Below, piece by piece: positions 14,399 to 64,000 of a stretch of DNA of 64,000 nt. Both the position numbers and the translations under genes were made by a program. The stretch covers positions 18,701,765-18,765,764 of the forward strand of contig NC_087078.1 of the NCBI RefSeq assembly GCF_026151205.1, written 5' to 3'. Source of the stretch: Bolinopsis microptera (lineage: Eukaryota; Ctenophora; Tentaculata; Lobata; Bolinopsidae). Positions within the stretch are counted from its first letter, which is position 1. Each line of letters opens with the position of its first letter. The notes beneath the pieces are model-generated. The model saw nothing but the letters and a program-made list of their open reading frames with translations. It searched no databases and was not told the DNA's origin.

Positions 14399-14477
14399 TC
14401 AGAAGTTGTAGATCGCTGTTTGTTTCGGTGGTAACGTCTGAGCTTTGCCGTATTTGTGGTTTTCTTTCGAGTCACCC
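14399..14477 (-). CDS. Small terminal exon of the giant gene
   Basis: Minus-strand acceptor CCAATTTTTCAG|G, then an open frame of 25 codons ending TGA at 14401-14399. It includes GDSKENHKYGKAQTLPPKQT and ends IYNF. Its phase (2 in) fits the donor at 15068 (GATGA|GTATGT) of the preceding exon. The LPPK motif echoes the alternative proline-rich exon at 20931-22035. The hydrophobic C-terminus of pattern Y-x-F could be a class II PDZ ligand, which is inference. I take it as one natural end of the giant gene. Confidence 0.6.
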
Positions 14478-15012
14478 CTGAAAAATTGGATCATGGTAAA
14501 ACTGGGAATGTTGTAAAATGTTTGTAGTAGGAAGGGCTAGTGTATATTTATCGAAAGTAATTAAAAGTTGATTGTTGTTGTCTGATTGAAGAAGATCGTT
14601 ATCATTTTTCATACCACTATTTTCAACGACAATAAATTCCGTGGGATCATTTGGAGGATCTGTGTTCTAAAGAAATCATCAATGTTTAATAGGACTAGGA
14701 CAAATTGGTCCTGTACCGGAAATTATGTTCTTCCCTTGAAACATTTTTGAACAGTACCTGATCAAATGTAAATCTGTTCTGACTGCTCTTTTTAACGACG
14801 CCACGGAATATTTAACTAACATTGCCTTCTCTACAACTCTGGTTACGTCTAATACCTAGGAAGCCGAGAACGATGGTTCTTTCAATCCTGTTACCATTAA
14901 CAGTTTGCTTCCAACTATCACGATCGATCCATAATTCCGCTACCACTAAAACTACTCGATCAAACTTTTCATGACCACTCAAAAATACATATAACTAACA
15001 ATTAACTTCCAA

Positions 15013-15832
15013 TCAACTGAACTGCCATTCTTCCTCTTCCTCTTCATGGGCTTTAAACAAAACATACTCATCATCTGAGACAGAGGTTAACGTTGAGACT
15101 GTCGAAACCCTGAACATATCATCTTCATACGGATCAAAGAAACCACCAATATCAACAGTTTCAACAACGGCCTCAAGACCAATTACACTAACAGTAGGAA
15201 CCTCACTTCCACCTAAAAACTGATCTAAGCTATGCGTTACCGAACCCTCACTAAGAAGAGAAGCAGAGGACTGTCTCCTCCGTCTGGTGGTCACCACCGG
15301 AGTCAGGGACCTCAGGAGATCCTTGTAGGAGTCATCTGGGCTGGTAGTCCTTGAGAGGGGGCTGTAAGGAGCAGGACTGTTTGTTTGATCAGACAGAATG
15401 GGATAAGTGTCTTGGTGTGAAGGTCCTGCCCGCTCCTCCTCTCCTCCCCGCTCCTCCTCTAACTTGGGCTTATCTCCAGCAAAGTAACTGAATCCATCCT
15501 GACGTTCTGTTCGAATAAGCTGCTGTTCCAATAATTTACCCAGCTGTTTGACTCCTACAGCAGGTTCCTCTGGTACCTTCTCTAGTGTTCCTATACCTTC
15601 CAGCTCCTCCTCTTTTATCTCCCAGATATTGGCTAGACTCCGTTTTACTTCCTTTCCCTTGCCTCTTAGTGTTCCCCCGGTTAGTGAGGCGTTGCCGATT
15701 GATAGAGACATCCGTCTCTTTTTATCTTTCGGTATGTTAGTTTGTTTGTCTGTTTGTCCGTCTGTTTGTCTGTCTGATAAGCGGAAGCTACCAAATAGGT
15801 CACCGAGACTAGGTGACCTGGCTCGTACTAAC
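15013..15832 (-). CDS. Ser/Glu-rich exon, internal or alternative 3' end
   Basis: The exon is entered through CACAAG|G, about 20 bases after a perfect TTACTAAC branch-point, in phase 2, matching the donor of the exon at 19784. The frame runs 272 codons. It contains RARSPSLGDLFGSFRLSD, an acidic block with SLANIWEIKEEELEGIG, SPAPYSPLSRTTSPDDSY (Ser/Thr-Pro sites), TRRRRQSSASLL (basophilic-kinase site) and an acidic end EEEEEEWQFS. Two outcomes are possible: splicing at GATGA|GTATGT (15068) in phase 2 to 14477 or 1724, or read-through to TGA at 15013. There are no folded domains. The ATG at 15711 has a weak context and the frame is open well upstream of it, so I extended to the acceptor. The family is not recognised. 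Confidence 0.75.
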
Positions 15833-18800
15833 CTTGTGATAGATGTACCCCGTTAGTAATATGTGCTGTAAATTGTAATTTTATTGTCACTAAATGGAAA
15901 TGCACAGGTTCGTCAGATGGAACCTATTGCCAAAAAATTAGGTTTTGTAATCGAATATTTTGTAATCTCAATGCTCCAAACTTACATAGGGTGGTTCCCG
16001 CTTTATGCTAAACCTAAAGTGCCTGCAAAGTATAAAATCATGCATGCAAAATCAACCAATGCGAGAACTAGAAAGGGTCATGCAAAGTTTTATGTTATCT
16101 GTAATAAAATTAAAACACATGAACATGAAGTGTGTGATAACTGATAAGGTGTAAATATAAGTTGTTAGTAAAAACATGTAAATTGATACGACGGTGAGAT
16201 TAGGCACGTGACTCTACGTCATATAAACGAGATTACAGGGCATTTATTATGAATAAGGTCCCGAGTTGTTGGGATCTGCACCGTGACACTCATTAATTTG
16301 AACCAATGCTACTCGCCCGTGGCTACATTGCATCTCCTTTCGAGCTCAGTGAACAGCTCTCTACCGGCGGCTCGACCCCACATACAGAGATGGTCGTATC
16401 ACGTGTTGTATCACGTGTTGTATCACGTGATCTGACCGGGAGATCACGTGATCTGACCAGCACTTCAATTCAATTTCACAGCTCTTTCTACGTGGTGCTA
16501 ATGATTTCGACATTGCTACATCGCAAATATATACACTGTAGTTTTATTGTTACAAAGCTTGATCCTAGGCTGCTGCTACTGCTACTTGAACATAAGCTAT
16601 GATATTATATCACAAGTTTTGCTAATGGTTAGTGGTAACACCTTGCTGTCCTTGTGTGTACTTACAAATGTCAAGCAAGGTCTTTACAGCAGGGGGCTCG
16701 CTTTTACCCGTAGCATATTCGAGAACAACATTAACGTTTATTGTTATGTGTAGCACTTTCCATGAGCCGCATAATTACTTTCCATTAGCCACATTATTAC
16801 TTACTATAGCGTAATTACTGATCATATCATATATTTTACATTGTATATATTTTATTTGTTGTTTTATTTTCCTTCTATTTTTGCGACTATTGTTTGTGGT
16901 TTCAAGTTCTTACCATTCGCCCACGTGATAACGCGCAACTCAATCTAAGACACGTATTCGTATAAAGGACGGAGCTCCTCAATTGTTGAGTAAACTTCCT
17001 CCAAAGCCAGAATATTGCCATCACATGATCGCATATGTGCCAAATTCTTCAGAAGTAATCGAATTTGATAAACTTTTAATAATAATATAACCCTTAATAT
17101 AACAAATCAAAGTTGATAAACCCTTACAATAATTACATCACATAAAATATAAATAGAACCTGGGAAATAATTTGATAACCAAACTTGATAAAACCTTACA
17201 TGGGTTGCTACGGAACCACGTGACCCCTGACCGGTGGTGAGCGGTGTCTCCATTAATTACTAAGTAGTTAAAATAGATAAAGTTAAGTTGCCAGGACACT
17301 GATTTTTATTTCAGATTCATTTCAACTTTGCTACGCGACATCTGAAACCTTGGCAGCTGCATTGCCATTACTAATTATCCCTTTCTAAAATTTCGAGATC
17401 TTCTTTGCTTTTAATTTTCGGCTCCTCTACAGTGCTTAACGGATAGTATCAATTGAGGAATTTGTCTGCGAGCGATGGAACTGTCATGGTAGCCTCAATG
17501 AAAGAATTTTTGTCTTTTCCATTTCACTTAAACTATTACCGCTGTACTACAACCGAGTGATAAATACACGCACGAATGATAAATGCACTTACAAATGCTT
17601 TGCACTATCGCAATTTCTATACTGCTTTTGATTTGATTGAGTACTAAGTAGACACAGTTAATATGTTGTAGTACAGCGGTAATAGTCACTGTAAAGATAT
17701 AACTCTATCAACCAGTAGAACAGCCCGGCTTCCATTAACGAAATGAACCACAATTAATGAGATCACAGTCCCGCTAACCATGCCAATAATATCCTTTCTT
17801 CAATGCATTTCATGACTTCTCGTCCGGCGGTGCTGAAGTCAACATATGTACCGACTGGAAGATTGAATGGACGAATAGCAACATGCCAATCACAAAAGTT
17901 GCATCACGTGACCATTATTAGACCAATCACGGCCGAGGTCTAGTCTAGGAGTTGATGCCGTCAATCTCCAAAACGTCACTAGTCGCACAACTTAATAAGC
18001 TGAGGGTGGGGTTATATACGAGGATATTAGCAGACATTCGCCAGATTCATATGTTATAATACTATTGTCGGTTCTAGCCCTTCTATCACTAATTTGATAG
18101 GGTGGACGAAGGTCCGATTTTGTGTTCATTCGGCTTCCCCAAAGTGATGAGTCTTTAAACATTTACACTACGATTCTGATCGGTTACTTGCTACTTTCGT
18201 TAACAATCAATAGGAAAACTTATCTTGATAAATAGTTACTAGACACCGGTAATAACAGTAGACGGCGCCCGAAACCTGGCACCCAGCCCGAAACCTGGCA
18301 CCCAGCTGTCCTACACAAATATTAACCGACCTCTGCAGGTAATTTGGGCAAACAAACCCCTCATCAGTTGCTGCGTCCCGTTGCGTAGATCTGGGTGTTA
18401 TTAAATTTCGTCTTCACACGAATCTCGAGTTCAATACCATTGTTTCCCGGGCCCGGGCGGGTGTTTTCGCCTGATAATTGTTATTATAATCTGTACGGGT
18501 AGCAGGGGGGGGGGGGGGGGCGCCCCGTCCTACTCAGACACTGGTACTTAGCTTAGACTCTCCCATTTGTTGCTAGGTTACCCCCAGTTAGATAGTAGTG
18601 TTCAGATATTTGCGGTTATTTCCGTTTCTAAAGCTCTTTAATTGCGATGGAACTTATTTGCCATGCTCGGGGCAGAGTCCGTGATTCTTAAGCGTTATTG
18701 CATTCGATTTTCATTCCATTGTTTTGAAAGCATGGTATTTCACATTTTTACAGTCACTCTACTTGATGATTTATAGATATTCTTTGTTCGTGTAGCAGAA

Positions 18801-18895
18801 GATTGCCAGTATAGCAGTATGAACGCGGTTTTACACATTTGCCAACTCGATGTATAGCGTTTTAAAATCCGTTTATTAGAACACTAATTTTGCAG
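15833..18895. other. Large intron with dense CACGTG palindromes
   Basis: No minus-strand exon was seen. TCACGTG motifs cluster at 16396-16450 (three direct 14-bp units, then two inverted) and recur near 16205, 17217 and 17905. A 16-base G run lies at 18505-18520. A 19-bp direct duplication (cccgaaacctggcacccag) lies near 18270-18305. Confidence 0.5.
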
Positions 18896-19371
18896 GGGAT
18901 GTAACGAGGGCGGGTGAAACTAGGTTCTATCTCTGCCATGCAGCTGACACTCAGACAGCCAAGGTGACACTAAAGCGACTTAACTACCCCGACAGCATTG
19001 CTTCGTTCTCAGAGTTTGATCTGGTTCTTGTTTTTCACCCTTGCGCTTCTTCTGCAACCATAATTAACTCAAGAGACTGAAATCTCAATCTTGCTGGGCT
19101 GGTACCAGGCTCTCATTTTACTCTCGAACGAGGTGGGAATCATAAGAGAATGAGGAAACTAAACGGAGGTGAGGTGCTCCTCCTGATATCCCCCATCCTC
19201 CTGGTCTCACTCCTTGCAGTGGTTCTGCTCCTGATAGCAGCACGGGGTCACGTGCCAAGACACGAGAATAAGATTGAAGATAAGAGTCCAGAGTTTGCAG
19301 ATTTGGAGAGGGAGAGTGCAGAACAGTTTGAGATGATGACAGCTTCTCTGACCCCGATTGTAGTGGGTTGA
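18896..19371 (+). pseudogene. Nested FN3-like/transmembrane exon with one in-frame TGA
   Basis: After an acceptor (ATTTTGCAG|GG) the plus frame is open for 60 codons, meets TGA at 19078-19080, then stays open in the same frame for 96 more codons to TGA at 19369-19371. The first part reads like an extracellular beta-sandwich (GETRFYLCHAADTQTAKVTL, then FDLVLVFHPC). Just after the TGA comes NLNLAGLVPGSHFTLE, which fits the L-x-x-L-x-P-G-x-x-[FY]-x-L signature of the E-F strands of fibronectin type III. A 22-residue hydrophobic helix follows (VLLLISPILLVSLLAVVLLL) and then a ~43-residue charged cytoplasmic tail ending TPIVVG. This is the C-terminal end of a type I membrane protein. The TGA may be a nonsense allele, a base error, a pseudogene mark, or a recoded codon. 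An ATG at 19150 could give a 73-residue TM peptide alone. It lies in an intron of the minus-strand gene. Confidence 0.5.
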
Positions 19372-20930: not shown

Positions 20931-22035
20931 TTAAACGTCAGTTACTTTACTTTTCGGAGGTAAAGCAGGAGGTCGGTCGCTATTATAAGTGGAAAGTTTC
21001 GGCGGTAATCCAGGTGGGTGAGTGTTTTTTGGCGGTAAATGTGCGGTCAGTACATGTTGTTTTGGCGGTAATTTCGCTCCATTCTTTGGAGGGAGAGCGG
21101 GAGGTAGTTGGTTCCTCCCTTTGGGAGGGAGACTTGGTTTCATTTCAGGCCTTGCTGGTTGTAGAGGAGGGAGACTTGGTTTCTGTTCAGGCCTTGCTAG
21201 TTGTAGAGGAGGGATACTAGGTTTCTGTTCAGGCCTTGCTGGTTGTAGAGGAGGGAGAGGCCTGTCCCAATCCTCTGGAGACGGAGTACTGTCCCACTCT
21301 TCCGGACTCATGTTCCACTCGTCAGGGGCCTCCCAAGTGGACTTCAGTCCTTTCAGAGTTTTCTCTCTGTTTAAACCTTGTTGATTTACAGATTTGGGAG
21401 GAAGGGGAGGGACGTAAGGAGATTGGGGGTGCCTCAGGGATATGTTCTTGGGTGGTAAAGGAGGTGGCGAGGACTCTGCTATCTGGTTAGGATCAATATT
21501 CCACTCAGGCGGACAGTCCCAATCTGACTTGATACTCTTCCTGACAACCTCGCTCCGGACCCTGCGCCTTGATCTGGGGCTCCTCCTATTATCCACTCTC
21601 CTGACTGACATCCCCCTCACCCTCACTATTTCCTGCTCCCCTCCATCTTCCTCCTCGTCCACCATATCCTTTACGCTCTTAATCATCTCCACTTTGTGAA
21701 GTGATCCAGAAGTGTGCGCGAGTTTGATGTCCAGCCCTGTCACTCCTTTCTTCAACAGCTTCTTCCTTCGCTTCTTCTCTGCTTTGTCTAGCTCTGGGTT
21801 CCAACTTTTATCAGTCTCTGAGTCCGTGGATGAAACCAAGAACCCAAACTTCTTCTTTTTAGCGACGGGGGTAGAGTGAGGGGTGGTTCTTGGGGAAACC
21901 CCCTTCTTCCCAAGCATTCTTCCGAGGGTCATTGTTTTGTGTTTGTTGTCAGTAAGCGTAAGGTCAGTTTTACTTTTAGTTGAAAGGGTCATGTCCGTGT
22001 CGATCAGTTCAGCAAACTCCACCCGTACAGCTGAC
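20931..22035 (-). CDS. Proline-rich SH3-ligand exon with PDZ-ligand-like tail (alternative 3' end)
   Basis: The acceptor AGCATCAG|G follows a TACTAAA branch-like site. From it the frame is open for 367 codons to TAA. The first third is basic, with VAKKKKFGFLVSSTDSETDK and an R/K-rich stretch. The middle carries repeated DW/EW modules (DWDCPPEWNIDP, EEWDSTPSPEDWD). The last half is packed with P-x-x-P-x-K motifs (PPPLPPK, VPPLPPK, PPALPPK, PPGLPPK and others, at least eight), which are class II SH3 ligands. Three near-identical 14-residue repeats (PPLQPARPEQKPS) sit within. The C-terminus KVTDV fits a class I PDZ ligand (T-x-V). The incoming phase 2 matches the donor at 22963, making this an alternative last exon of the ankyrin gene. 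An internal ATG (codon 15) leaves a separate gene possible. Confidence 0.75.
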
Positions 22036-22070
22036 CTGATGCTAGGTCGTGGATTTTAGTACGGTGTTGT

Positions 22071-22772
22071 CATACATAGTAATACTATACATAGCATAGT
22101 AATACTATACATACTATACATACTATACATACTATGCATACTATGCATACTATACATACTATACATACTATACATACTATACATACTATGCTTACTATGC
22201 ATACCATGTATACCATGCATACCATGCATACCATGCATACCATGCATACCATGCATACCATGCATACCATGCATACCATACATACCATACATACCATACA
22301 TACCATACATACCATACATACCATACATACCATACATACCATACATACCATACATACCATACATACCATACATACCATACACACCATACACACCATACAC
22401 ACCATACACACCATACATACCATACATACCATACATACCATACATACTATACATACTATACATACTATACATACTATACATACTATACATACTATACATA
22501 CTATACATACTATACATACTATACATACTATACATACTATACATACTATACATACTATACATACTATACATACTATACATACTATACATATTATACATAC
22601 TATACATACTATACATACTATACATACTATACATACTATACATACTATACATACTATACATACTATACATACTATACATACTATACATACTATACATACT
22701 ATACATACTATACATACTATACATACTATACATACTATACATACTATACATACTATACATACTATACATACT
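22071..22772. repeat. 9-bp minisatellite (CATACTATA)n, ~77 copies
   Basis: Pure 9-mers with sub-blocks of CATACCATG, CATACCATA, CACACCATA and CATACTATA. The unit length is a multiple of three, so frames stay open on both strands (Met-Tyr-Ser on minus, His-Thr-Ile on plus). These are repeat translations, not genes. It lies in the intron just upstream of the proline-rich exon. Confidence 0.97.
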
Positions 22773-22931
22773 AACGAGAATAGTACAATTTAAAAACTAG
22801 TCGATTGTCACTGTCCCAGTTGAAATAATAACACGTGCCTTAGATCACAAGTTAGATATTTACAATTTATCTGATAAACTATACCAGAGCGAAAATGAAA
22901 GAATATAGGAGAAAAAAAACATGTGAAATAA

Positions 22932-23077
22932 TCAGAGAGTGTACAGTCTTTTAAAGACTAACTTGACTAGTCGGGGATCGTGTACATTGAGAAGGCCCTT
23001 AATCTCCTCTGGGGCAGTGGGGGGGAGGTAGTGACCTGATTTCTTCCCTTTATGATCTCTGATGTCCTTGTCTGCCC
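22932..23077 (-). CDS. Last SOWAH-module exon; alternative donor or stop
   Basis: Acceptor ATGTTTTCAG|GG, phase 1. It completes the second ankyrin repeat and the conserved tail of the module: GADKDIRDHKGKKSGHYLPP, then TAPEEIKGLLNVHDPRLV. The -RD-x-x-G-K-K-x-x-x-YL pattern is typical after the last ankyrin repeat in Sosondowah proteins. Read-through ends KRLYTL and TGA at 22934-22932. A donor GTCAA|GTTAGT at 22963 leaves phase 2, which suits both the exon at 22035 and the one at 20215. So the module can end here or continue into either tail. Confidence 0.8.
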
Positions 23078-23391: not shown

Positions 23392-23550
23392 CATATCTGA
23401 TGATGAGTTCAATAAGGTCTGTCTTTCCGGTCTGGGCCGCTAAATGCAAGGGAGTGTGACCACTATTACTCTTCATGTTGACTTCACTGCCTGCTTCTAG
23501 TAGTATCTTAGCCATATCTATTCTACCTAACTTACACGCCCAGTGCAGTC
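23392..23550 (-). CDS. Ankyrin-repeat exon (SOWAH module)
   Basis: Acceptor CTTACCACAG|G, donor ATATG|GTTTGT, 159 bases, phase 1 at both ends. It encodes the end of ankyrin repeat 1 and most of repeat 2: GLHWACKLGRIDMAKILLEA and GHTPLHLAAQTGKTDLIELI, with the canonical TPLHLAA loop-helix. Symmetric phases would allow clean skipping. Sosondowah (SOWAH) proteins carry this pair of repeats; their biochemical role is poorly known. Confidence 0.9.
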
Positions 23551-23750
23551 CTGTGGTAAGAGGGGTTATCTTACACATATTGTAATCGTTTATCTAACTA
23601 ATAAGTCATTTAAAGTGGCAAATTTCAGTGAAATATTGGTTATTTCTGTAACATCTACCAAAACTGGTAGGTTGAAAAGTTCAAAAAATAACGGTGAACA
23701 CATAAAAGTAAAGTTTCCAAATCAGGATTTCACACAACTGAAAGACCTAC

Positions 23751-23936
23751 CAGTGTAACCGGAGATGAAGTCCTTGTAGTACACCAAGTTACTTACCAGT
23801 GTAACCGGAGATAAAGTCCTTGTAGTACACCAAGTTACTTACCAGTGTAACCGGAGATAAAGTCCTTGTAACTTACACCAAGTTACTTACCAGTGTAACC
23901 GGAGATAAAGTCCTTGTAGTACACCAAGTTTTTATC
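23751..23936 (-). repeat. Four 46-bp copies of an exon end plus its 5' splice site
   Basis: The 3' end of the next exon (coding VYYKDFISGYTG) together with its donor GTAAGT is repeated in tandem at 23751, 23797, 23843 and 23891, with a period of 46 bp (once 48). Three copies carry GTAAGT and the outermost carries GTAGGT. Only the first junction in transcription order (23891) keeps the frame; reading past it gives TAA two codons on. Confidence 0.9.
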
Positions 23937-24040
23937 TGTTAACAGAAGTCTGGAAATAGTGTTGCAGTCTCCCAGGGCTGACTTTACTATCCATTCCTTC
24001 TCACCTTGTTCCAAAGGTACGTTCGAGCAACCACTCTCCA
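23891..24040 (-). CDS. SOWAH-module entry exon
   Basis: Acceptor TTTGTTACAG|TG, donor ACACTG|GTAAGT, 150 bases, phase 1 both ends. It encodes EKEWIVKSALGDCNTISRLL followed by KDFISGYTG. The [EH]-x-W-[ML/IV] opening, the short leucine helix and the DF-[IV]-[ST]-GYT joint into the first ankyrin helix are the hallmark of the Sosondowah family, from recognition of vertebrate SOWAH proteins. Its donor region is tandemly quadruplicated (see the repeat entry). Confidence 0.9.
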
Positions 24041-24749: not shown

Positions 24750-25173
24750 AGGATGCAATAGAACTCCGTCTGCTCCCGTACGTCATATCAAACAAAGCGG
24801 AGTTAATAGAAACTCTGGACAGTCGGTTGTTCCTCCTCTCAATAATCTCCGCAGTGATCTGAGTGCTGGATCTCCTCCGCATGACCACCGCCGCGTCACC
24901 CTGGCAACACGTTACACTCCCCTCGCTCTTTGCACGTGGTATGGCGAAACTATCACGGTCGTAAGCTTGGAGGTTCTCTATTTTGCGGGGCAGCGGGGGT
25001 TTGCTCCCCGAGAAGATACGGTTACATGTGGTGTGTTCAGGGGTTTTTAGAGGAGTTGCTGCGGGGGTTGTTGAGGTTGGGGGTTTCTGAAATCGGTTGA
25101 GAGATAGGAAACTGTTGCTCTTCTTCCGGTCGAATATGTTGCCGAGTGTTGTATCTACTGCCAGACCTTCCAT
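24750..25173 (-). CDS. Ser/Arg-rich exon upstream of the SOWAH module
   Basis: Ends at a perfect donor GCATCCT|GTGAGT in phase 1, matching 24040. Protein features are FDRKKSNSFLSLNRFQKPP, SGSKPPLPRKIENLQAYD (a PPLPRK SH3-type ligand), VVMRRRSSTQITAEIIERR and YGSRRSSIAS: several R-x-x-S kinase-type sites and a probable short helix. There are two ways to start. ATG at 25173 has a strong context (AAGAATGG) with TGA just upstream, giving a 292-residue protein with the next three exons. Alternatively, acceptor GGTCTGGCAG|TA (exon from 25157) in phase 1 continues from the exon at 26035. Both may be used, the ATG from an internal promoter. Confidence 0.8.
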
Positions 25174-25261
25174 TCTTCAAATACCTCCAGACAGCTTGAG
25201 CTACGAGTATAGTATTCGGTAACAAGTTGTCCAGGAATAAGATTTAAGTAATTATATCACT

Positions 25262-26034: not shown

Positions 26035-26148
26035 CTAGCATTACGGACCGCCGTGCCATATTGTCTCGTAGAATCGAGTGAAAGTTCCTCGATGCCTTCC
26101 ACGGATGGTTGATGGACATGTGCCGGACATGTTCAATGTGGCAGTCTA
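26035..26148 (-). CDS. Conserved-looking exon linking the two halves of the giant gene
   Basis: Acceptor TTGTCTGCAG|TA, donor ATGCTAG|GTAACC, 114 bases, phase 1 at both ends; the other frames have stops. The protein is DCHIEHVRHMSINHPWKASR then NFHSILRDNMARRSVML. Upstream, the exon at 34262 can leave phase 1 (TTTTATG|GTGTAT); downstream, 25157 takes phase 1. The composition is that of a folded segment rather than low complexity. The domain is not recognised. Confidence 0.7.
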
Positions 26149-34261: not shown

Positions 34262-34528
34262 CATAAAACGTACTGTACGGATCAAAGGAGTTGCGTCTGA
34301 CATGAGCGTATCCAGGGTGATTCACTTGCAGCGTGTCTCCGTCTCCGCTGCTATCCAGGGGGAGCGACATGCACCTCGTCCGTCCCAGGTCCTCGTCCTG
34401 ATCCTCGCAGTGGTCGTCTGTAACACTGCACGACCTCGCACCCACCCCACTCCGGAGTATCTTATACTTGTTCCGGATATCCAGCATCTTGGTTGTGTTA
34501 CACCGGGGCAGTGTCTTCCTTCTCAAGC
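34262..34528 (-). CDS. Exon of the giant gene
   Basis: Acceptor ACGGTACAG|GC in phase 1 matches the donor at 35926. It encodes LRRKTLPRCNTTKMLDIRNK (a basic, possibly helical start), then an acidic patch (DDHCEDQDEDLGRTR), SLPLDSSGDGDTLQVNHPGY and RRNSFDPYSTFY. Donor TATG|GTGTAT leaves phase 1 for the exon at 26148; a GTACGT donor lies a few codons earlier, also phase 1. Without splicing the frame ends TGA at 34256-34254, so this may also be an alternative end. The acceptor has a weak pyrimidine tract. Confidence 0.65.
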
Positions 34529-35925
34529 CTGTACCGTTGTTACCGGGGTAACCACACGTGACGTCATCAACATCACATGACGTCATCACGTGAGCGTCAA
34601 ACTGGTACCGTGACGTCATGGTGTCTTTAGAGTTCATTCCATGCACGACGAAAAACAAAGACACCCCGACAAACAAAAAGAGATAAATTCCAAAACAACG
34701 AACAAAGGACAAAAGTTACAACAATAAAATATTTCGCTCTGACACAGTTGTCTCAAGCGTGACAAAAGGAGACGTATGCTAGTTTTACGTCGTTACCATA
34801 GTAACGGTGCGTGTCGTTACCGTAGTAACGGTTGACATGACGACCCGCGCCCAACGCTTCAACACAAGACACCTTGCAGTTGTTAAAGTTGAGGCCTGTC
34901 ATTAGGCAACTTATTTAACAGTTCACTTTTCGACCTTTATTGGTAAATCTTGCTGTTAAAAGATGCGACTTTGTTCAATCGAACGTTTCTTTACTGGGCA
35001 GTACAAAACTTTGGTGAAGAGTCAACTTTCCCGCGATTTTTTCTCAAATTTATGGCTAAGGATCAGAGTAAAATACAGTTTTAAGTTGCAAGCTAATTCA
35101 AGATAATATGCAAGATACGCTCGACAAGGATAAATTAACAGATGGGAGAAGCGGCGATTGAGCACAGTCAAAGAAACACATAAGTGGGAAGCCAGTAATA
35201 TAGATTAGTAAATTTAGGAGGGGCTTCACTCGATAGCAGTGTTACACTGGTTCTAGGGTGAATCATGAGAATATTGGAACATATTTTGTAGAGACAAACT
35301 ATGTTGGGAATGAAACTACAGCGTATAGTTTCCAGGGTTAAACTTAGGTTATTTTGGCTGTGCATGGTCAATAGTGACACTGTTAAAGACACGTACAAAC
35401 TGATAGTTTAGTTGCTATATATTCAGTCACCATTGGGAGACATAGACGACCAAGTTTTGTCAGATACATGGTCCTAATTCTGCAATTTTAGAAATAAACT
35501 GGGCTACAGTAAGATTGGAGAACAAACTTTAAACCTTTTTCTTGGTGCAGATTGGGACCAACAAAATACAATCTTTAAAATTACAGCTCAACTCCATGAG
35601 TTTTGCATATTCAAATCCTGAAATATACAAGGTGCGAGAAAACAACAACGAAACAACACTCATTTCCCATGCAATAATTGACAAACACTCAAGAAGGTCT
35701 AATACGATGACATGCAGTCTCATATCACATATATATCCGATAAAGAGTGAAATTTTACCAGGTACAATTACTGGTTATCAGCATATATCAGCATCCAATG
35801 AGTGCTACAAGCCTGCCTCCCTCTAATAGTAAAGATTATTGTAATCATCAGAACATGAATCAGAATGCTTTAAGAGAGACTGCTATACAATTGTAATGAA
35901 AAGTAAGTGGAAGTTATGGACTTAC

Positions 35926-38412: not shown

Positions 38413-38464
38413 TTTGTTTAAGTTACCCTGTCATCATCATCAGCTTGCACGTGCCAAATAACAG

Positions 38465-38611
38465 CTGATATTATCTCCCTCTGCCTGCTCTTCCTCCGCA
38501 AGGTATTCCACTCCCTGGGCGAGATACCGTCCGTGTTCTCCGAGTCACAGCTCCACGACCGAGAGTACGAAGAGGCTCGTCTCGTCGTCATGGTGACGGA
38601 TCACGTGTCAG
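38465..38611 (+). CDS. Helical exon of the nested secreted-protein gene
   Basis: Acceptor CCAAATAACAG|CT, donor GTGTCAG|GTAACT, phase 1 both ends. It encodes DIISLCLLFLRKVFHSLGEI, then PSVFSESQLHDREYEEARLV and VMVTDHVS. It is amphipathic, probably alpha-helical, with one cysteine. The GC-richer, stop-free frame contrasts with the flanks. It joins in phase to 39059. The donor is repeated three times in tandem. Confidence 0.6.
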
Positions 38612-47687: not shown

Positions 47688-47782
47688 GTTCTATTGAACA
47701 TGTTGATCGCATTGATGGAGGCTTTTCTGATTTCAGGTCTTTTAACTTGTGTGGGAGTTACGACAGCATTTTCATTCTGAGG
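47688..47782 (-). CDS. Exon of the giant gene
   Basis: Acceptor TTTATTTTTGCAG|CCT and donor AATAGAAC|GTAAGT, 95 bases, phase 0 in and phase 2 out. It encodes PQNENAVVTPTQVKRPEIRK and then ASINAINMFNRT. Both splice sites are near consensus. It continues the frame of the right-edge exon (…DNVP|PQNE). Confidence 0.8.
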
Positions 47783-51556: not shown

Positions 51557-52699
51557 CTACAAGACAGCTACATTTGCTACAAGACAGCTACATTTGCTAC
51601 AAGACAGCTACATTTGCTACAAGACAGCTACATTTGCTACAAGACAGCTACATTTGCTACAAGACAGCTACATTTGCTACAAGACAGCTACATTTGCTAC
51701 AAGACAGCTACATTTGCTACAGACAGCTACATTTGCTACAAGACAGCTACATTTGCTACAGACAGCTACATTTGCTACAAGACAGCTACATTTGCTACAA
51801 GACAGCTACATTTGCTACAAAACAGCTACATTTGCTACAAGACAGCTACATTTGCTACAAGACAGCTACATTTGCTACAAGACAGCTACATTTGCTACAA
51901 GACAGCTACATTTGCTACAAGACAGCTACATTTGCTACAAGACAGCTACATTTGCTACTAGACAGCTAGATTTGCTACAAGACAGCTACATTTGCTACAA
52001 GACAGCTACATTTGCTACAAGACAGCTACATTTGCTACAAGACAGCTACATTTGCTACAAGACAGCTACATTTGCTACAAGACAGCTACATTTGCTACAA
52101 GACAGATACATTTGCTACAAGACAGCTACATTTGCTACAAGACAGCTACATTCGCTACAAGACAGCTACATTTGCCACAAAACAGCTACATTTGCTACAA
52201 GACAGCTACATTTGCTACAAGACAGCTACATTTGCTACAAAACAGCTACATTTGCTACAAGACAGCTATATTTGCTACAAGACAGCTACATTTGCTACAA
52301 GACAGCTACATTTGCTAGAAAGACAGCTACATTTGCTAAAAGACAGCTACATTTGCTACAAGACACCTACATTTGCTACAAGACAGGTACATTTGCTACA
52401 AGACAGGTACATTTGCTACAAGACAGCTACATTTGCTACAAGACAGCTACATTTGCTACAAGACAGCTACATTTGCTACAAGACAGCTACATTTGCTACA
52501 AGACAGCTACATTTGCTACAAGACAGCTACATTTGCTACAAGACAGCTACATTTGCTACAAGACAGCTACATTTGCTACAAGACAGCTTCATTTGCTACA
52601 AGACAGCTACATTTGCTACAAGACAGCTACATTTGCTACAAGACAGCTTCATTTGCTACAAGACAGCTACATTTGCTACAAGACAGCTACATTTGCTAC
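51557..52699. repeat. 20-bp minisatellite (acaagacagctacatttgct)n, ~57 copies
   Basis: A highly uniform array; two units lack two bases and one has an extra base. Twenty is not a multiple of three and the unit has no stop in any plus frame, so all three plus frames are open for up to 370 codons and cycle through the same 20-residue peptide. I regard these as repeat artefacts. Confidence 0.97.
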
Positions 52700-54950: not shown

Positions 54951-57035
54951 ATGGAGGCCTAGACCCCGGTTTTAACAAATCCCGATAATACGACCAGACG
55001 TATTGAAAGGTATTCTACGTCACTGGAAAGTGAAAGTTATGTGAGAATATACGGATTTAAGGAGTAAGGGGATGAGAAATGTTGATAGTAGGGGGACTCA
55101 GGAATGCCACGCCCTATTATGGAATGCCACGCCTACAGTGTAAACATGATACGTATTCACTAATTGATAGGCTGTCTGAATAGTATCGGGGGAGAATTGA
55201 ATTGGATGTATATATGAGAAATGTCAAGCTAGACCACATATTTTATTACTCTAATGTTGTAGCGCCTCCCTACAATTTGTGCCCCAAATTTTAAAAGGGT
55301 ATTTTGGTTTACCCTCAGGATATAATGACCTCACTAGTATTTAAAATGTACATTATACAATGTATACAATGTATACGATGTACCATCGAATGTAGCGTTA
55401 CAAATGAAAGTACCAAAGAGAAACTACACACTTGAATAGACATGATAACGCGACACACAAACCGTCAACGAGAAACAAATTAAGCGACCGATATTACAAT
55501 ATCCCCAATACGTTACTACTAATAGTATCCACTATTTTAATTAAGTATCAACTTGCATTTTATCGGTATTTATTGTCGCTATTTTATCGCTATTATTTAG
55601 TATCGCCTTGTGTTATTTAATAAAATGATTTCTGAATTAGAAATGTTCTAATGCTCAGACATATGATTACACTACACTATTTGATAACACTACAGATCTG
55701 TAACAGATCTGCCAAAATATGACAGATTAGCCGGCAGTTATTTCCAGATCATTAGTCAATATTAACCATCATTCACTAATCTAAGACTCATGACATGTGA
55801 CATGTGACATGTGAAGGAAGTTGCCTAAATTTCCATGATAAATTTCAAGAACCCTAACTTTTAACATATATCCGTCAGGAATGTATAAAACTGGAAATTT
55901 GTAAGTACTAAGTACATTTCTTTCTGCAGAATAACTGTGAACGAAAACAGGTATAACGTCATAAATATTAGCCACCTAGGCAGAATAATATGTACGGGCA
56001 AGTTCTGTAACTTTACTGTGATGATAACATCCTAAGTTCACAACTCTATCATTGTCGACAAGTGAGCACTTGCTAACGTCAACTTTCTGCGCTTCAATCC
56101 CACAATTATGGGGATGTTAATAGATACTTAACTTTAATGTGACATGTAACAACTTTAGTGTTTAATGTGACATGTAACAACTTAGTGTTTAATGTGACAT
56201 ATTAGAGCGGGTAAAAGCCAGTCCAAACCCTGGCTCCATATCATGAAGGCCTCGTTTCAATTTGTATTGAAAAGCACCAATATAAAAAACTTTAGTGATT
56301 AATGTGACATGTAAAAACTTTAGTCCAGTGTAATTCTACGAGGGAACATTGTAAGAGCCTTTCTACTTTAAAGGGTACATTAAAATGAGCTTTAGTCTGA
56401 ATGAGCGAGGTAACGTAACTGGTAACCCTCTAGATGTGTGTCTGGGTGTGTGTGATGTAAGTTATGTAAGGTGCGGACCTACCTCTAGATGTGTGTCTAC
56501 TGTCTGGGTGTGTGTGATGTAAGTTATGTAAGGTGCGGTATGAATGGTATTTTCAGGTAAGATAACGTCATTATAATCACCTTTAACACTGACGCTCGGG
56601 AAACTTGGTGTAAAAGTATAATGTAATCGTTAAAACTTACATAAGTTTATATTGTATAACTTGAGTGACGTAATATAACGTCACTCTTGCGTTTTTTAAA
56701 ACTTCTGCTAACAACTTGTTAAGTGTGTAGCTTAGTACCTCGTATAAGTCGACATTCTAGAATATCAGCTTGATCTAATTTAAATATTTTTATAAGATTT
56801 TCAAACTGATTACGGTGACATTATCATCGAGGTAGATTGATGTCCACTAAGATTATCAGAATTAAGTAAAATAATAATAAGTAAAGTTCATGATCATTAG
56901 GGTTCCTTATGACTGAGTAGTGAGTATCTGCAACCATTAATTTAGCAGGATGGAACCAGCTGCGAGTAGCAAGCAGTTCAAAGCAACTCTTTACAATATC
57001 AAGACCTGATTTAAATATTATCTGGCCTCTAGCTC
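54951..57035. other. Intronic, non-coding
   Basis: It contains short direct repeats only: aatgccacgcc near 55103-55132, tgtgacatgtaacaactt(tagtgttt) near 56140-56200, and tctagatgtgtgtc… near 56432-56540. No gene was seen. Confidence 0.4.
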
Positions 57036-57533
57036 GGTGCAACGGAGGGGCGTGCGCAGGGGGGAGGCAGTGTAACGGAGGGGCGTGCGCAGGGGGGAGG
57101 CAGTGTAACGGAGGGGCGTGCGCAGGGGGAGGCGGTGCAACGGAGGGGCGTGCGCAGGGGGAGGCGGTGTAACGGAGGGGCGTGCGCAGGGGGGAGGCGG
57201 TGTAACGGAGGGGCGTGCGCAGGGGGGAGGCGGTGCAACGGAGGGGCGTGCGCAGGGGGGAGGCGGTGCAACGGAGGGGCGTGCGCAGGGGGAGGCGGTG
57301 TAACGGAGGGGCGTGCGCAGGGGGGAGGCGGTGTAACGGAGGGGCGTGCGCAGGGGGGAGGCGGTGCAACGGAGGGGCGTGCGCAGGGGGGAGGCGGTGC
57401 AACGGAGGGGCGTGCGCAGGGGGAGGCGGTGTAACGGAGGGGCGTGCGCAGGGGGGAGGCGGTGTAACGGAGGGGCGTGCGCAGGGGGGAGGCGGTGCAA
57501 CGGAGGGGCGTGCGCAGGGGGGAGGCGGTGCAG
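57036..57533. repeat. G-rich ~32-bp minisatellite, ~15 copies
   Basis: The unit is cggaggggcgtgcgcagggg with gg(a)ggc(g/a)gtg(c/t)aa, varying by one G. It is a GC island in AT-rich DNA with all G-runs on the plus strand. Frames on either strand are repeat translations. Confidence 0.95.
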
Positions 57534-58733
57534 GCCATGTTTTACCTACTATCCTGCTTTACCTACTATCCAGATCTTTCCGGGCTAAAACGTGTATCTT
57601 CAAGGATTTCCTGGTTCAATTTCCTGATTCATAATGATAATGCCAAGCTCAGGGAATGAAGTTTCGCTTTTGCAGCGTGTAATGATACTTAACATCAATA
57701 TAGAGCTCTACAGTACAGTAAGAGTGGGAGTCGCTTATTATATTACATATTATTTAATGTCATGATATATCATATAATGTAAATAAAATATAAATATTGT
57801 TTACACGGAATATTATAAATGGACCATTGCCCTCTGTTCATGAGATCATAACCCATTACTAATATTCTTAAGATAATACGAGTTTTACAAAGAAACAATT
57901 GTCATGGCGTAACGAACTCTCCATCCATCCATTAATTCTGAAGAAACTTCCCGAGTTACAATACAATGACGATGGTTTTTATTGGCGTATTAATTAAGGA
58001 CGTCAATTGTTCATTTAAGTACGTGTGTAGGGAGGAGGATAATGGACTTTACCTGTTAGATCATTCTTCAGTTATATATAATAACTTATAATCAAAGGGC
58101 GTCCTCTATGGTGTCCTTTACTTGCAGCAGAGATATTATATGTTTTACAACAGGGATAATCTTTACTTTGTTACAATTAACAATATTACATAATATCAAC
58201 ACCCTTTATATGGTTATGATCCAATATCTCACCTACGTTAATGTAACTTTTGCAAAAAAACACGAACGTAATAGACTAATATCCTTAATTACTTCTAAAG
58301 CTGGTATTTGCAATGAAACAGCCTTCTGCAAAAATTACAGCTGTCCGATATCTAATAGTAATGTGACATAATATGAAAAGCTAATTTCAGACCAGATGCA
58401 ATATTTCCCAACTATTTTCGCAACCACTATGAAAAAGCACAGCTACGCTACGCTGCCTTAAGATTAGATTTAGATCTTCTAAAGCTAGATTAGATTACTC
58501 AGCCCCCTCATTTTCAGTGCCAGTGTAACCTCGCCGCATTCCAAAACAAATACCAATCACAGAATCAGGTGCACAGTACACCTGAAGCTGAGTAACATGA
58601 GTAACATGAGCCTGAGCGCGGCTCCCACATTACATATGAGATTGTGTGTACTGTGTAGGCTCTCTGTAATGGCTGCATGTTAGGGCAAATAACAGAGAAT
58701 GTAGGCAGGTGGTCACTACTCACTACAGCATCT
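57534..58733. other. Intronic, non-coding
   Basis: AT-rich. An 87-codon ATG frame at 58108-58371 has no supporting signal. Confidence 0.35.
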
Positions 58734-59363
58734 GGTGTGGGGTAGTATTGCACTCTGGTGTGGGGTAGTATTGCACTCTGGTGTGGGGTAGTATTGCACT
58801 CTGGTGTGGGGCAGTATTGCACTCTGGTGTGGGGTAGTATTGCACTCTGGTGTGGGGTAGTATTGCACTCTGGTGTGGGGTAGTATTGCACTCTGGTGTG
58901 GGGTAGTGTTGCACTCTGGTGTGGGGTAGTATTGCACTCTGGTGTGGGGCAGTATTGCACTCTGGTGTGGGGTAGTATTGCACTCTGGTGTGGGGCAGTA
59001 TTGCACTCTGGTGTGGGGCAGTATTGCACTCTGGTGTGGGGCAGTATTGCACTCTGGTGTGGGGTAGTATTGCACTCTGGTGTGGGGCAGTATTGCACTC
59101 TGGTGTGGGGCAGTATTGCACTCTGGTGTGGGGTAGTATTGCACTCTGGTGTGGGGCAGTATTGCACTCTGGTGTGGGGCAGTATTGCACTCTGGTGTGG
59201 GGCAGTATTGCACTCTGGTGTGGGATAGTATTGCACTCTGGTGTGGGGCAGTATTGCACTCTGGTGTGGGGCAGTATTGCACTCTGGTGTGGGGCAGTAT
59301 TGCACTCTGGTGTGGGGTAGTATTGCACTCTGGTGTGGGGCAGTATTGCACTCTGGTGTGGGG
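58734..59363. repeat. 23-bp minisatellite, left part
   Basis: About 27 units of ggggtagtattgcactc plus tggtgt, with tag/cag alternation at one site. It ends abruptly at the hAT-type element. Confidence 0.97.
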
Positions 59364-59971
59364 CAGGCACGTAGCCAGGGGGGGGGGCTAGGGGGGCGGC
59401 AGCCCCCCCCGGAAAAAATCGAACCCCAGAAAAAAGATAAGCCCCCTAGTCCCCATGGTCGCCTGGTAACTGGGCTGTGTTTATGACTGCAGTCAGTCAA
59501 AGATTTGAACTGTGGATTAGTAAATATATGTCATTAAATCCAAGCAAACATTCTAGAAGACTTCTATAATTATAGTCAATAGTGTCCCCTAGACCGTAGG
59601 AAATGTAAAAATCTTAAGACGATGAGGCCTGAGTAAGTCGTAAATTCTGATTGGAGAATGCAGATTGCTGTTGTGAAGTTACCAAATTTACGTGAGTACT
59701 TGATTCTTTTCAATCCCAGTTTATTGCTGTCCTACAAATTTCTTTAATGCCAAATGTCGTCTAAAACACCCTGTTTCGCAAAAAATTTCCGGGGGGCTGC
59801 GCCCCCGTAGCCCCCGCCAAGGGGCTCCGCCCCTGGACCCCGCTGGGGGCTGCGCCCCCAGACCCCTGCCACAGCTTGCTCGCTTCGCTCGCTGCGCAGC
59901 TTGATTGGACGCGTCGGCTCGCTTCGCTCGCCGACAGCCCCCCTCAAAGAAAAATCCTGGCTACGTCCCTG
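59364..59971. mobile_element. Non-autonomous hAT-type element, 608 bp
   Basis: Its ends are CAGGCACGTAGCCAGG and CCTGGCTACGTCCCTG, 16-bp terminal inverted repeats with one mismatch and the CAGG start seen in hAT elements. The host gtgtgggg is present on both sides (59356-59363 and 59972-59979), an exact 8-bp target duplication as hAT transposases make. No transposase frame is present. The interior is GC-rich near the right end, with self-complementary stretches (gggggctgcgccccc, cgctcgcttcgctcg). Confidence 0.85.
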
Positions 59972-60135
59972 GTGTGGGGTAGTATTGCACTCTGGTGTGG
60001 GGCAGTATTGCACTCTGGTGTGGGGTAGTATTGCACTCTGGTGTGGGGTAGTATTGCACTCTGGTGTGGGGTAGTATTGCACTCTGGTGTGGGGTAGTAT
60101 TGCACTCTGGTGTGGGGTAGTATTGCACTCTGGTG
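59972..60135. repeat. 23-bp minisatellite, right part
   Basis: Seven further units of the same 23-mer in register once the 8-bp duplication is removed, so the array predates the insertion. Confidence 0.95.
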
Positions 60136-60457
60136 GGGTATTACTGTAGCTGCTATTCTCATTCCATGTTCTCAGGTCTAGCATAATGCTATCTACAGTA
60201 TCTGCATAAGATGCAGCAGGCAGTAGGGCGGAGCTCACTGCTTTATTTATACATTACTCTAGCTCTTTCATCAGTATTCTAGCTTGATAGACAGTATAAC
60301 ATGGGGTCACCTGTTCGTTGCAGCAGACACCCCCCCATATTGACGTATAATGGTAAAAACTACTGTAGGTCTAGACGAGTATTACGTATTAAATTCTCTA
60401 AAACTTAGTGGGGTTTTTTAGTGATCTAACTCTATAACATAAAATGTCGAGATAAAA

Positions 60458-60548
60458 ATGAACAATGATAGTTTAACTGTCTATAGGATAGAGTCGAAAG
60501 CAGGTGAAACATTAAACCAGACAGAGATATACAGAATGTACAGGGTTG
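60458..60548 (+). CDS. First exon of a possible small nested gene
   Basis: ATG after an in-frame TAA. It encodes MNNDSLTVYRIESKAGETLN then QTEIYRMYRV and ends at a strong donor GGGTTG|GTAAGT in phase 1. The next candidate exons (60883, 61332) chain in phase. No family recognised and no signal peptide. Confidence 0.35.
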
Positions 60549-60882
60549 GTAAGTTGGGATGTCTAGTTTTGGGCACTCGAAACTGGAGGTTGAGTATGCG
60601 ATATGACTCGTGGAATTATTATTACATCCTGTCAGTAAACCGTGCAGCGAATCTCTCTTGAGAGAAAACCTGCGATTCTGCGAGCATTATATTGACATAT
60701 TATACCTAGAGCCCAGCAAGCATTAACTCAACCCCTGTATTGACCACACAGTTATATAATATATATACCATGTGACTTGTTTGTGACTTGTTTGTGACTA
60801 GTGAAGTTAGGACTGCAATGCTAAATAGAGCTGTAAAAGTAAAGTAAGTGACTTGTTTGTGACTCGTTCGATATCCTGGTAG

Positions 60883-60923
60883 TAATACGCACTACATCCT
60901 GGTATTCCTGGAGAAGGAGACAG
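60883..60923 (+). CDS. 41-base possible second exon
   Basis: Acceptor ATATCCTGGTAG|TA, donor GAGACAG|GTATAT, phase 1 in and phase 0 out, encoding IRTTSWYSWRRRQ. An alternative frame (NTHYILVFLEKET) is also open but does not chain. It is very short, so low certainty. Confidence 0.25.
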
Positions 60924-61019
60924 GTATATGAGTTACTTTCTCCCGTGATGATGGGAACATAACTAATTACTGTGCAGCCCTGTCATTTACTGCGGTCCAT
61001 ATTCACCCTTAATGTGTCA

Positions 61020-61270
61020 GTCGTACTGACGCACTCTGCGTACTGACGTACCCTGTGTACTGACGTACCCCGGGCCGCGTACTGACGTACCCCGCGCGGC
61101 GTACTGACGTACCCCACGTACTGACGTACCCCACGTACTGACGTACCCCGCGTACTGACGTACCCCGCGTACTGACGCACTCTGCGTACTGACGCACTCT
61201 GCGTACTGACGCACTCTGCGTACTGACGTACCCCACGTACTGACGTACCCCGCGTACTGACGTACCGTCT
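61020..61270. repeat. 17-18-bp minisatellite (gtactgacgtaccccgc)n
   Basis: About 15 units alternating gtaccccgc, gtaccccac and gcactctgc endings after gtactgac. It lies in the putative intron between the small plus-strand exons. Confidence 0.95.
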
Positions 61271-61331
61271 ACTGTTAACACAATGATGCAACAACAACTC
61301 CCGCTTATAGGTCTGGTTTCCTGTTTTACAG

Positions 61332-61403
61332 TGGTATTATGAGAGTGAGGAGCTACCCAACATTGAGCTGGAGCACCCAGAACACAGAGCACAGAGCTGT
61401 TAA
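61332..61403 (+). CDS. Possible terminal exon of the small nested gene
   Basis: Excellent acceptor GTTTCCTGTTTTACAG|TGG, then WYYESEELPNIELEHPEHRA QSC and TAA. Phase 0 in fits the donor at 60923. A second frame is open as well (ends LNLNT), so the frame choice rests on chaining. Confidence 0.35.
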   Translation, partial: WYYESEELPNIELEHPEHRAQSC

Positions 61404-62876
61404 CAAATACCTGAACTTAAATACCTGAACTTCGGTATTCGTTGAGGGATGCCCATCATCAGCATATCTTTAATTCTGTCAATATATAACGTTAACTTCC
61501 GGCTGAGATTTCAAACTGTTAACACCAATTAACCGCTATCATTAGCTAAATTCTCATGCTAACAAAGATAAGAGTATCTTGGGCCACTGTAAACACAAGT
61601 TTCTCAATTTAGCGCCCTGTAAGAATGTAAGCTCTCACACTTAACACATACACACTACACACTGAAGAAACAGTGTACAGAGGGTACAGTGTACAGTGCA
61701 GTGTACCCTCGGTACACTGCCGGTACAGCTGAACTGGTGTCGACAGATCAGGGATGAAACTGACAGTCCTACTTCTGACAGTCCTACTAGTAACTTGTTC
61801 TATATTATAAGCTGGCCCGGCCTCCTGAGCTCGGGGTGTTACATTGACCAGTCTTCATATTTATTATGGATATTATCTGCCTCTGAGAACTCGGTGTCCT
61901 TTTCGGAGTCTACCCCTAGAATTCACCTCCCAGACTTGGCTAGATCCTTGATTGGGAGTTATTCACATGTGCACACTACTATACTACCACACTACGCATT
62001 CTTAACACGTCTTGTTATGGTCTAGTTACATGAATAGGCTGGCTAAGGTATGTAACAGTGTCTACTGGTATGCTCATCAGGGACAGTTCAGATTAGTACA
62101 CACAGCACCACATGTACCGTGTATTGTACTGCTTAGTGGGTTGTTGTTTTGTAACAAACACAGTGGTGGCCCACTGTGCAAGGGTCCCTCAACACTGTAT
62201 ATCACACTCAATACTGCACTGGGACGGAGTGGGTCTCATTTTAAAGCAAAGATTCCTAATATTTGTGCGTACCTGCTTGATCTGAGCGGCTTCTTCTATT
62301 TTAACATGATAACTCGGAGGGATTAACGGCCCTTAAAACCGAGTACCCCCCCCCCCCCCCCCCCCCCCCTCCGAGCACCAACATCTAACAAACAGCAGCT
62401 TGCCAGCATTCCGTACATGTTGTTTCCTGGTCCCACAATAACAAAGTCAACTTTCTCCTTTTAAGAGAATGAATAAATGCTATACTTTTAAACACAAGTT
62501 AAGTCCTGGTGGAGGCAGGTCCGGCGGAATGAATCACTGCTATTTCTCAAGCTGGGAGCATCAAGTCAAAACAATGCCGTGCTGAGCCGTATACAGGCCG
62601 CCCAAAAGTTTAACAGCAAGAATTAAAATAAGTGTTAAACAATGCCACAATGCATTCGAATAGATGAGTCAATCAAGACAGACAAGGGAAGGTATTATTG
62701 CAATAAATAACTATAAATGATATTGTTATTGTTTGTGATACGGTGTGATGCAGCAGATAGTGAGTTTTATTAATGGTGAGTAGCTGGCACCAGCTCAGGT
62801 AATTGTTCTAGGTAAATATTGTAAATATTGATAAAACTATGTATACAGTCCAGGGTGCAGGTGTATACATTCCAAG
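61404..62876. other. Non-coding or unresolved stretch
   Basis: Two overlapping non-ATG plus frames (61696-62025 and 62012-62326) could be a frame-shifted remnant but show no recognisable motif. Poly(C) of 24 bases lies at 62346-62369. Confidence 0.3.
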
Positions 62877-63031
62877 CTAGGGTGTGCAGGCAGTTTGACG
62901 AGAAGAGAAGACCCTTTTCTCTTGCAAAATTAAGATACAACGTTAAAAGTTTCCTACACGAACTACAATATATGGCACGTGCGGAGAGAAGTGACGTTGA
63001 CTTTATTGCAAAGCGTCAAGATAACCTATAA
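62877..63031 (+). CDS. Possible terminal exon on the plus strand
   Basis: From ATTCCAAG|CT the frame reads ARVCRQFDEKRRPFSLAKLR then YNVKSFLHELQYMARAERSD and VDFIAKRQDNL, and TAA. It is charged and probably helical, with coding-like composition. An upstream ATG exon (MQQIVSFIN, donor AATG|GTGAGT at about 62789) would match in phase. Not recognised. Confidence 0.3.
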
Positions 63032-63201
63032 ATTATAGACGCATATACAACCACACGGACAAAGTTTTTTTCCCCATTTTTAGGCTATCTTGTTCCTAAA
63101 TCCTGCAGGAACCAGAAAAGTGACAGCTAAAGAGTTACCACGTCTGTCGAGGCGGGTTAATGAGGGTAATTTACTGGGAAATATGTGTCTCGTGTAACAC
63201 T

Positions 63202-63462
63202 ACATACCCAACAAAGCTACATCCTACATCCTACATACCCAACATAGCCACATCCTACATACCCAACAAAGCTACATCCTACATCCTACATACCCAACAT
63301 AGCCACATCCTACATACCCAACAAAGCTACATCCTACATCCTACATAGTTACATCCTACATCCTACATACCCAACAAAGCTACATCCTACATCCTACATA
63401 GTTACATCCTACATACCCAACAAAGCTACATCCTACATCCTACATAGTTACATCCTACATTT
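63202..63462. repeat. Composite minisatellite (acatcctacatacccaacaa…)
   Basis: Units of acatcctac joined to ataccc, aacaaagct, atagtt or aacatagcc modules, in a repeating order of about 24-45 bp. Confidence 0.9.
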
Positions 63463-63642
63463 GATATTGTAGAGATAATGAGTGTTGTTGTTAGATAGAT
63501 CCCATATTATAGTGGGTATTGTAATATAATAGGGTGCTAAGTGCCACTAAAATGTCGAGACGAGCACAGTGCTACATAGAATTGATTAAATAAAGTAAAA
63601 TTAAACAGACTGCAACTGTCGTCATAAAGAAACTGTACTCAC

Positions 63643-64000
63643 CGGAACATTATCCACCTCCTCAGGACTAGCGGCACTGCTGGGAGGACTTGTAGCAGTG
63701 GTGGTGGTGGTGGTGGTGGTGGTGGTGGGTGACCGCTGTGGCGCTGTGGTGGTGGTGGGTGACCGCTGTGGCGCTGGACTCCTCCTCTCATGAGCAGTCC
63801 TCCTTGTCCCGCTCCGGGGACTGCGCTCCTGAGTCAGCTGTTTGGGAGTAGTGGGAGTTCTAGCAGCAGCACCCCCCACTTTGTCCTGCTGAAACTCACG
63901 TGACTGGTCACGTGTTAGTTGGCGCTGAGGGTCCCGCTGGAACTCCCGCTGATCATCCTTACTGTACTCCCTGTGTATTTTGTCACGTGATTTGTCTCTC
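63643..64000 (-). CDS. Right-edge partial exon of the giant gene
   Basis: The minus frame is open from the window edge to a strong donor GTTCCG|GTGAGT (phase 0). It begins with a highly charged, probably helical stretch (QREFQRDPQRQLTRDQSREF) and moves into RSPRSGTRRTAHERRSPAPQ. A run of ten threonines coded by a (GTGGTG)-type microsatellite (63700-63730) and TSPPSSAASPEEVDNVP follow. No folded domain is visible. Its phase matches 47782, about 16 kb downstream; further exons of phase 0-0 in that gap cannot be excluded. A SOWAH-type N-terminal domain, if present, would lie beyond the edge. Confidence 0.75.

Follow-up and report, generated by a model that had tools for sequence, protein, structure and literature searches.

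Genes of the animal Sowah (sosondowah) family are known chiefly as hosts of Iroquois enhancers. In most bilaterians they are linked to Iroquois genes, and this linkage is described as having been kept (PMC5803294, PMC12311624, PMC5585340, PMC8255886). In Drosophila, sowah is described as having large introns that harbour enhancers of the neighbouring Iroquois genes (PMC12311624). The parental Sowah gene of tetrapods is reported to have given way to a retrogene copy (PMC5803294). Here we describe a stretch of 64,000 nucleotides from the ctenophore Bolinopsis microptera (contig NC_087078.1, positions 18,701,765 to 18,765,764), referred to as the window and numbered from its first letter, with positions above 64,000 continuing the count beyond its end. 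A single large Sowah gene, rich in introns, very probably occupies its minus strand.

Like Drosophila sowah, the ctenophore gene is a Sowah gene with large introns; the fly gene lies beside the Iroquois complex, whereas a search of 194 kb around the ctenophore gene with one homeodomain query brought up no Iroquois match. With vertebrate SOWAHA-SOWAHD, represented by parts of human SOWAHB, it shares an N-terminal domain and an ankyrin module with the same landmarks, but it differs from them in having many exons and, behind exon 3, an intron that measures some 16 kb or more. The family as such is known. Of interest is its setting in a ctenophore in which no Iroquois gene was detectable.

The two Sowah domains and the tail

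Homology searches covered the whole genome of 264.65 Mb. The protein used for comparison was human SOWAHB, represented by parts of its sequence, significance was taken from 1000 shuffles, and splice sites were scored with a generic splice matrix. The coordinates of all exons and candidate exons are collected in Table 1.

The gene starts on the minus strand with an ATG at 64977, beyond the end of the window. Its first three exons, when joined, give 278 codons that are open throughout. At 113, the score of the N-terminal piece against SOWAHB is far higher than those of shuffled sequences (mean 22.8, best 44). The genome contains three matches to this domain at E<=1 (4.4e-18, 8.8e-8 and 2.3e-6), all of which are exons 1-3 themselves. 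Exon 3 ends in a strong donor (7.2).

The ankyrin module is encoded by three exons that are joined in phase 1 and phase 1, the exit from the third being in phase 2. Against SOWAHB it scores 220 (shuffles: mean 27.7, best 54), and among 28 single open reading frames (ORFs) scanned against Pfam, an ankyrin exon was the only one above the curated cut-off. A preliminary description of this DNA, made from the letters without database searches, had already recognised a Sosondowah-type ankyrin module; both the SOWAHB score and the Pfam Ank match bear this out. Genome-wide, the ankyrin query found at least 42 matches at E<=1e-5 (150 of 345 candidates were scored). Among the matches listed, three belong to the Sowah gene and the best other one is a second Sowah-type locus on C8; the remaining 38 are taken as ordinary ankyrin repeats, judged by their lower identity. 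As a separate observation, the intron after ankyrin exon 1 contains tandem copies of the exon's last bases together with the 5' splice site (23748-23930, minus strand, 46-bp unit, about four copies), with copies of the exon end at 23891, 23843, 23797 (GTAAGT) and 23751 (GTAGGT). Only the first of these donors preserves the frame, because GGT AAG TAA comes next. The fourth copy may be a former exon boundary.

The ankyrin module is followed by a proline-rich tail ORF of 374 open codons, which ends at 20931. The eight class-II SH3-ligand motifs in this tail compare with 1.45 in shuffled sequences, and none of the 1000 shuffles reached this number. A second long ORF on the same strand, ending at 15013, has 279 codons. 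In 100 simulated 64-kb strands no open run was as long as 278 codons; both ORFs exceed all chance runs in length and are for this reason considered to be coding. A 9-bp microsatellite of about 77 copies (22059-22796) lies directly upstream of the tail ORF, at the place where its acceptor and pyrimidine tract would be expected.

The second Sowah-type ankyrin locus (C8:16978424-16980960, at 16.98 Mb) resembles the gene in the window in ankyrin exon 2 (56% identical over 48 residues), in exon 3 (48% over 29 residues) and in the possession of a tail exon. The intron phases are equal at both loci: phase 1 into exon 2, phase 1 between exons 2 and 3, and phase 2 out of exon 3. At C8 the donor of exon 3 is strong (7.0) and the tail exon comes after it. 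The loci differ in that the N-terminal domain was unmatched at C8 at E<=1. Ankyrin exon 1 was not found there by a motif search of about 20 kb upstream, and the best match of the window's tail at this locus (E 0.018) lies in a repeat and is not significant. The final stretch of the C8 tail ORF is cysteine- and arginine-rich.

Table 1. Exons, candidate exons and further open reading frames of the Sowah locus, in window coordinates
Feature	Position	Strand	Remarks
Coding exon 1	64977-64860	minus	ATG at 64977; outside the window; part of the Sowah-type N-terminal domain
Coding exon 2	64527-64466	minus	outside the window; part of the Sowah-type N-terminal domain
Coding exon 3	64296-63643 (in the window 63643..64000)	minus	completes the N-terminal domain; about 200 residues of disorder-like linker follow
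Candidate inner exon	47688..47782	minus	31 codons; acceptor 2.0, donor 3.2; too short to tell from chance
Candidate alternative first exon	38427..38591	minus	55 codons, opened by an ATG that follows an in-frame stop; unproven
Candidate exon or alternative first exon, possibly coding	34262..34637	minus	ATG at 34637; 153-codon ORF
Candidate inner exon, the weakest	26035..26148	minus	acceptor 0.1, donor 1.5; frame score -0.02; unproven
Likely linker exon before the ankyrin module	24750..25157 (start 25157 or 25086)	minus	donor 3.3 at 24750, phase 1 to 24040
Ankyrin exon 1	23891..24040	minus	genome search E 5.1e-22
Ankyrin exon 2	23392..23550	minus	Pfam Ank 6.8e-14; genome search E 5.8e-30
Ankyrin exon 3	22963..23077	minus	genome search E 4.1e-19; exit phase 2
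Tail exon	20931..22041 (start 22041 or 22035)	minus	closed by a TAA that ends at 20931; eight class-II SH3-ligand motifs
Second long ORF	15013..15852	minus	279 codons; TGA ends at 15013; last exon or separate gene
Short ORFs, last step of the preliminary description	14399..14666	minus	unsupported

A probable single gene, its candidate inner exons and its end

The N-terminal domain, the ankyrin module and the tail ORF lie on a common strand and in the order of the family, the ankyrin module being 40 kb downstream of the N-terminal domain. We read them as one gene because the N-terminal domain is unique in the genome, lies on the strand of the ankyrin module and precedes it as in the family. As the genome has two ankyrin loci of this type, simple arithmetic gives a chance of about 1.5 in 10,000 that two halves of a family protein adjoin 40 kb apart with shared strand and correct order. 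With high confidence, these parts would thus be taken as a single gene of at least 44 kb, which ends at 20931 or perhaps at 15013. The preliminary description had proposed one minus-strand gene over almost the whole window. A gene of such kind is supported by homology, but its start lies outside the window, and the proposed end at 14399 is unsupported.

Several points weigh against this reading. There is no proved exon between 63643 and 25157, so that the join of the three parts in one transcript, across 38 kb, is one that we infer; the gene model is drawn from DNA sequence. The acceptor of the tail exon scores below -1.5, and the tail contains no class-I SH3 motif (shuffles: 1.5). For the N-terminal domain, Pfam returned no Sowah family (the best entry, RIH_assoc with E 0.0014, stays below the cut-off), and no solved structure matched it (best E 0.39). 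The N-terminal domain goes by the name 'winged helix', and the comparisons assume that the SOWAHB sequence used and the family landmarks of the ankyrin module are correct.

An alternative to one gene is a split Sowah, in which a first gene with the N-terminal domain and its linker would end after 63643, and a second one with ankyrin module and tail would start at an ATG near 34637 or 25173. The ORFs at both places are indeed opened by ATGs, the splice matrix found no good acceptor for the ORF at 34.6 kb, and all inner exons are unproved. However, alternative first exons of one gene account for these ATGs equally well, and the relative used for comparison carries N-terminal domain and ankyrin module in one protein, in the order found here on one strand. 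Two genes appear quite improbable.

Chance open runs of 135 and 153 codons arise 1.2 and 0.52 times per simulated 64-kb strand (runs of at least 55 codons about 138 times), and the ORFs at 25.1 and 34.6 kb are therefore not proved by their length. The frame of the 34.6-kb ORF scores 0.25 bits per codon, compared with -0.24 to 0.01 in the other five frames, which is coding-like. Low site scores cannot refute an exon, because sites in the Sowah gene that are supported by homology score as low (acceptor at 24040, -0.3; donor at 22963, 0.0; donor at 23392, below -1). The preliminary description named three junctions of its fourteen exons, and our checks cover these as well as the open stretches. 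The junction 63643/47782 joins a good donor (7.2) to a fair acceptor (2.0) of an exon of merely 31 codons. At 34262/26148 the scores are -0.6 and 0.1, and at 26035/25157 they are 1.5 and below -1.5, the alternative acceptor at 25086 scoring 2.8. Splicing exon 3 straight from its donor at 63643 to 25086 is phase-compatible too and gives 901 residues open throughout. A test based on synonymous codon preference, for which 12 ORFs with 6192 codons served as training set, was rejected: it had no power, and the ankyrin exons scored no better than random open stretches. The intron after 63643 contains long minisatellites with units of 20, 33 and 23 bp (51557-52699, 57035-57532, 58731-59366 and 59969-60135), which are open in several frames and are misleading for exon finding.

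The fourteen-exon chain of the preliminary description ran from 64000 to a stop at 14399, and its freedom from phase conflicts was regarded as unlikely to arise by chance. Open stretches with AG/GT borders are present on the minus strand where they were placed, and so is the TGA that ends at 14399. The argument from phase, however, does not hold. For a random chaining test, repeat-rich ORFs were removed beforehand, and junctions were tested pairwise in 2000 draws of 14 ORFs. With bare AG/GT borders, 47% of the draws from the plus strand were free of conflict for ORFs of at least 40 amino acids (n=238), and 85% for those of at least 60 amino acids (n=78). The corresponding values for the minus strand were 44% and 69%. 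Loose cut-offs on site scores lowered these shares to 1.5% and 16% on the plus strand and to 0.6% and 3% on the minus strand, and two stricter cut-offs left 0 of 2000 draws in every case. When chains were searched for on the plus strand, all 10 starts likewise led to phase-consistent chains, with 6-40 exons, under every one of four penalties. Agreement in phase is thus cheap when borders may be chosen freely. The best minus-strand chains did score above all plus-strand controls (e.g. 109 compared with 43-80 at the highest penalty), but this difference is discounted because tandem repeats at 58-60 kb supply much of it. A simple gene finder and constrained chains, which filled the introns with tandem-repeat 'exons', were rejected as evidence for exons and kept as controls only.

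As for the fourteen exons themselves, several of the inner ones are no longer than chance ORFs, and the last step to 14399 runs over short ORFs. Borders that agree in phase can be picked for the exact chain, and its last acceptor, at 14477, scores 3.3. On the other hand, such chains are easily found by chance, the final ORFs are short, and the 31-codon exon exits in phase 2, while acceptors of phase 2 in the 34.6-kb ORF are either confined to the region near its end or poor in score. We consider the exact chain hardly credible, and among the candidate ends we rank 14399 last in probability.

Poly(A) signals do not single out an end either, as 101 of them occur in 68 kb. An earlier end, at the TGA at 22932 right after the ankyrin module, would turn the 22-kb ORF into a separate gene starting at 21992. 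This is the choice of the simple gene finder at two of three penalties, and it would fit the score of only 0.0 for the exon-3 donor at 22963 and the poor acceptor of the tail. However, the matching exon at C8 has a strong donor of equal phase that leads into a tail exon, and the frame upstream of 21992 is open to 22055. The phase-2 exit of exon 3 at 22963, as at C8, fits the ORF from 22041 or 22035 and so supports a gene that continues past 22932; an end at 22932 appears improbable. The choice between 20931 and 15013 is closer. If the 15.8-kb ORF (15852-15013) were the last exon, the gene would end at 15013. This ORF lies on the strand of the Sowah gene, and splicing from the donor at 20951 to the acceptor at 15773 would keep the phase and leave the frame open through to 15013. 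That donor is weak (-0.4), however, the TAA at 20931 is already a good end, and the 15.8-kb ORF has an ATG of its own at 15711. It has no relative by which to decide, as a query of its positions 15711-15016 found no other match in the genome. We regard an end at 15013 as having only slightly less than an even chance.

Possible function and the Iroquois linkage

In the linkers and the tail, order-promoting residues make up 12-27%, so the linkers may well be disordered. The preliminary description had called the product a disordered scaffold, and the composition outside the two domains fits this term. On this basis, we hypothesize that the Sowah protein could act as an adaptor: its ankyrin module would bind one partner, the tail would collect SH3-domain proteins, and the N-terminal domain would supply a further contact. 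This role, predicted from sequence features, is tentative and a little more doubtful than not. The roles described for relatives do not agree with each other, and the cited papers do not point to one function: SOWAHB is listed among potential novel methylation-specific readers from a yeast three-hybrid screen (PMC5784651), chicken SOWAHA is described as acting on granulosa cells (PMC8255886), and fly sowah is referred to as a predicted cell adhesion protein (PMC12311624).

An Iroquois homeodomain, searched for with one query, was unmatched in 194 kb around the Sowah gene (best E 6.1). Genome-wide, the same query gave three matches, which are 40-48% identical. We take these three to be SIX-like genes. 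Seven of 26 homeobox places were read, and we assume three of them to be SIX-like, two Meis/Pknox-like and one Pbx-like, one being unclear. Judged from these searches, Iroquois is likely to be absent from the genome that carries this Sowah gene. For another ctenophore, Mnemiopsis, PMC2959044 likewise reports no Irx homeodomain, and it lists Irx as known in Amphimedon, Trichoplax and Nematostella.

A ctenophore Sowah gene with two domains and large introns, but with no detectable Iroquois gene, makes the age of the gene separable from the age of the linkage. Ctenophores have been argued to be the sister group to all other animals, in a study whose data include Bolinopsis reads from RNA-seq and Iso-Seq (PMC10232365). 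If this position is correct, Sowah would date back to the animal ancestor. The locus may also serve as an outgroup when asking for the role of Sowah and its introns without an Iroquois partner. It is conceivable, albeit speculative and in our estimate unlikely, that Sowah, two domains and long introns included, predates the partnership with Iroquois, that the introns in ctenophores are perhaps a regulatory landscape for another neighbour, and that the bilaterian block recruited a host gene that already existed.

Further features of the window and the genome

A glutamine-rich ORF of 390 codons lies at 575-1744 on the minus strand, and the simple gene finder adds exons to it beyond position 1 of the window; it is probably a separate downstream gene. 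ORF fragments at 10456-11006, also on the minus strand, have no match in Pfam. They resemble the end of a non-LTR retrotransposon polyprotein.

Searches of the genome for GFP and PGA_cap, made for hints at the phylum, found nothing, that for GFP being run without a positive control. An aequorin query found 55 photoprotein matches on C1, C2, C3, C5, C9, C10 and C13, 15 of them on C5. Most lie in tandem arrays, and many share equal scores and a period of about 0.94-1.03 kb. One of the copies marks the genome as that of a ctenophore: compared with solved structures, it matches berovin (E 1.8e-124) and mnemiopsin (E 4.2e-124), far above the cnidarian photoproteins.

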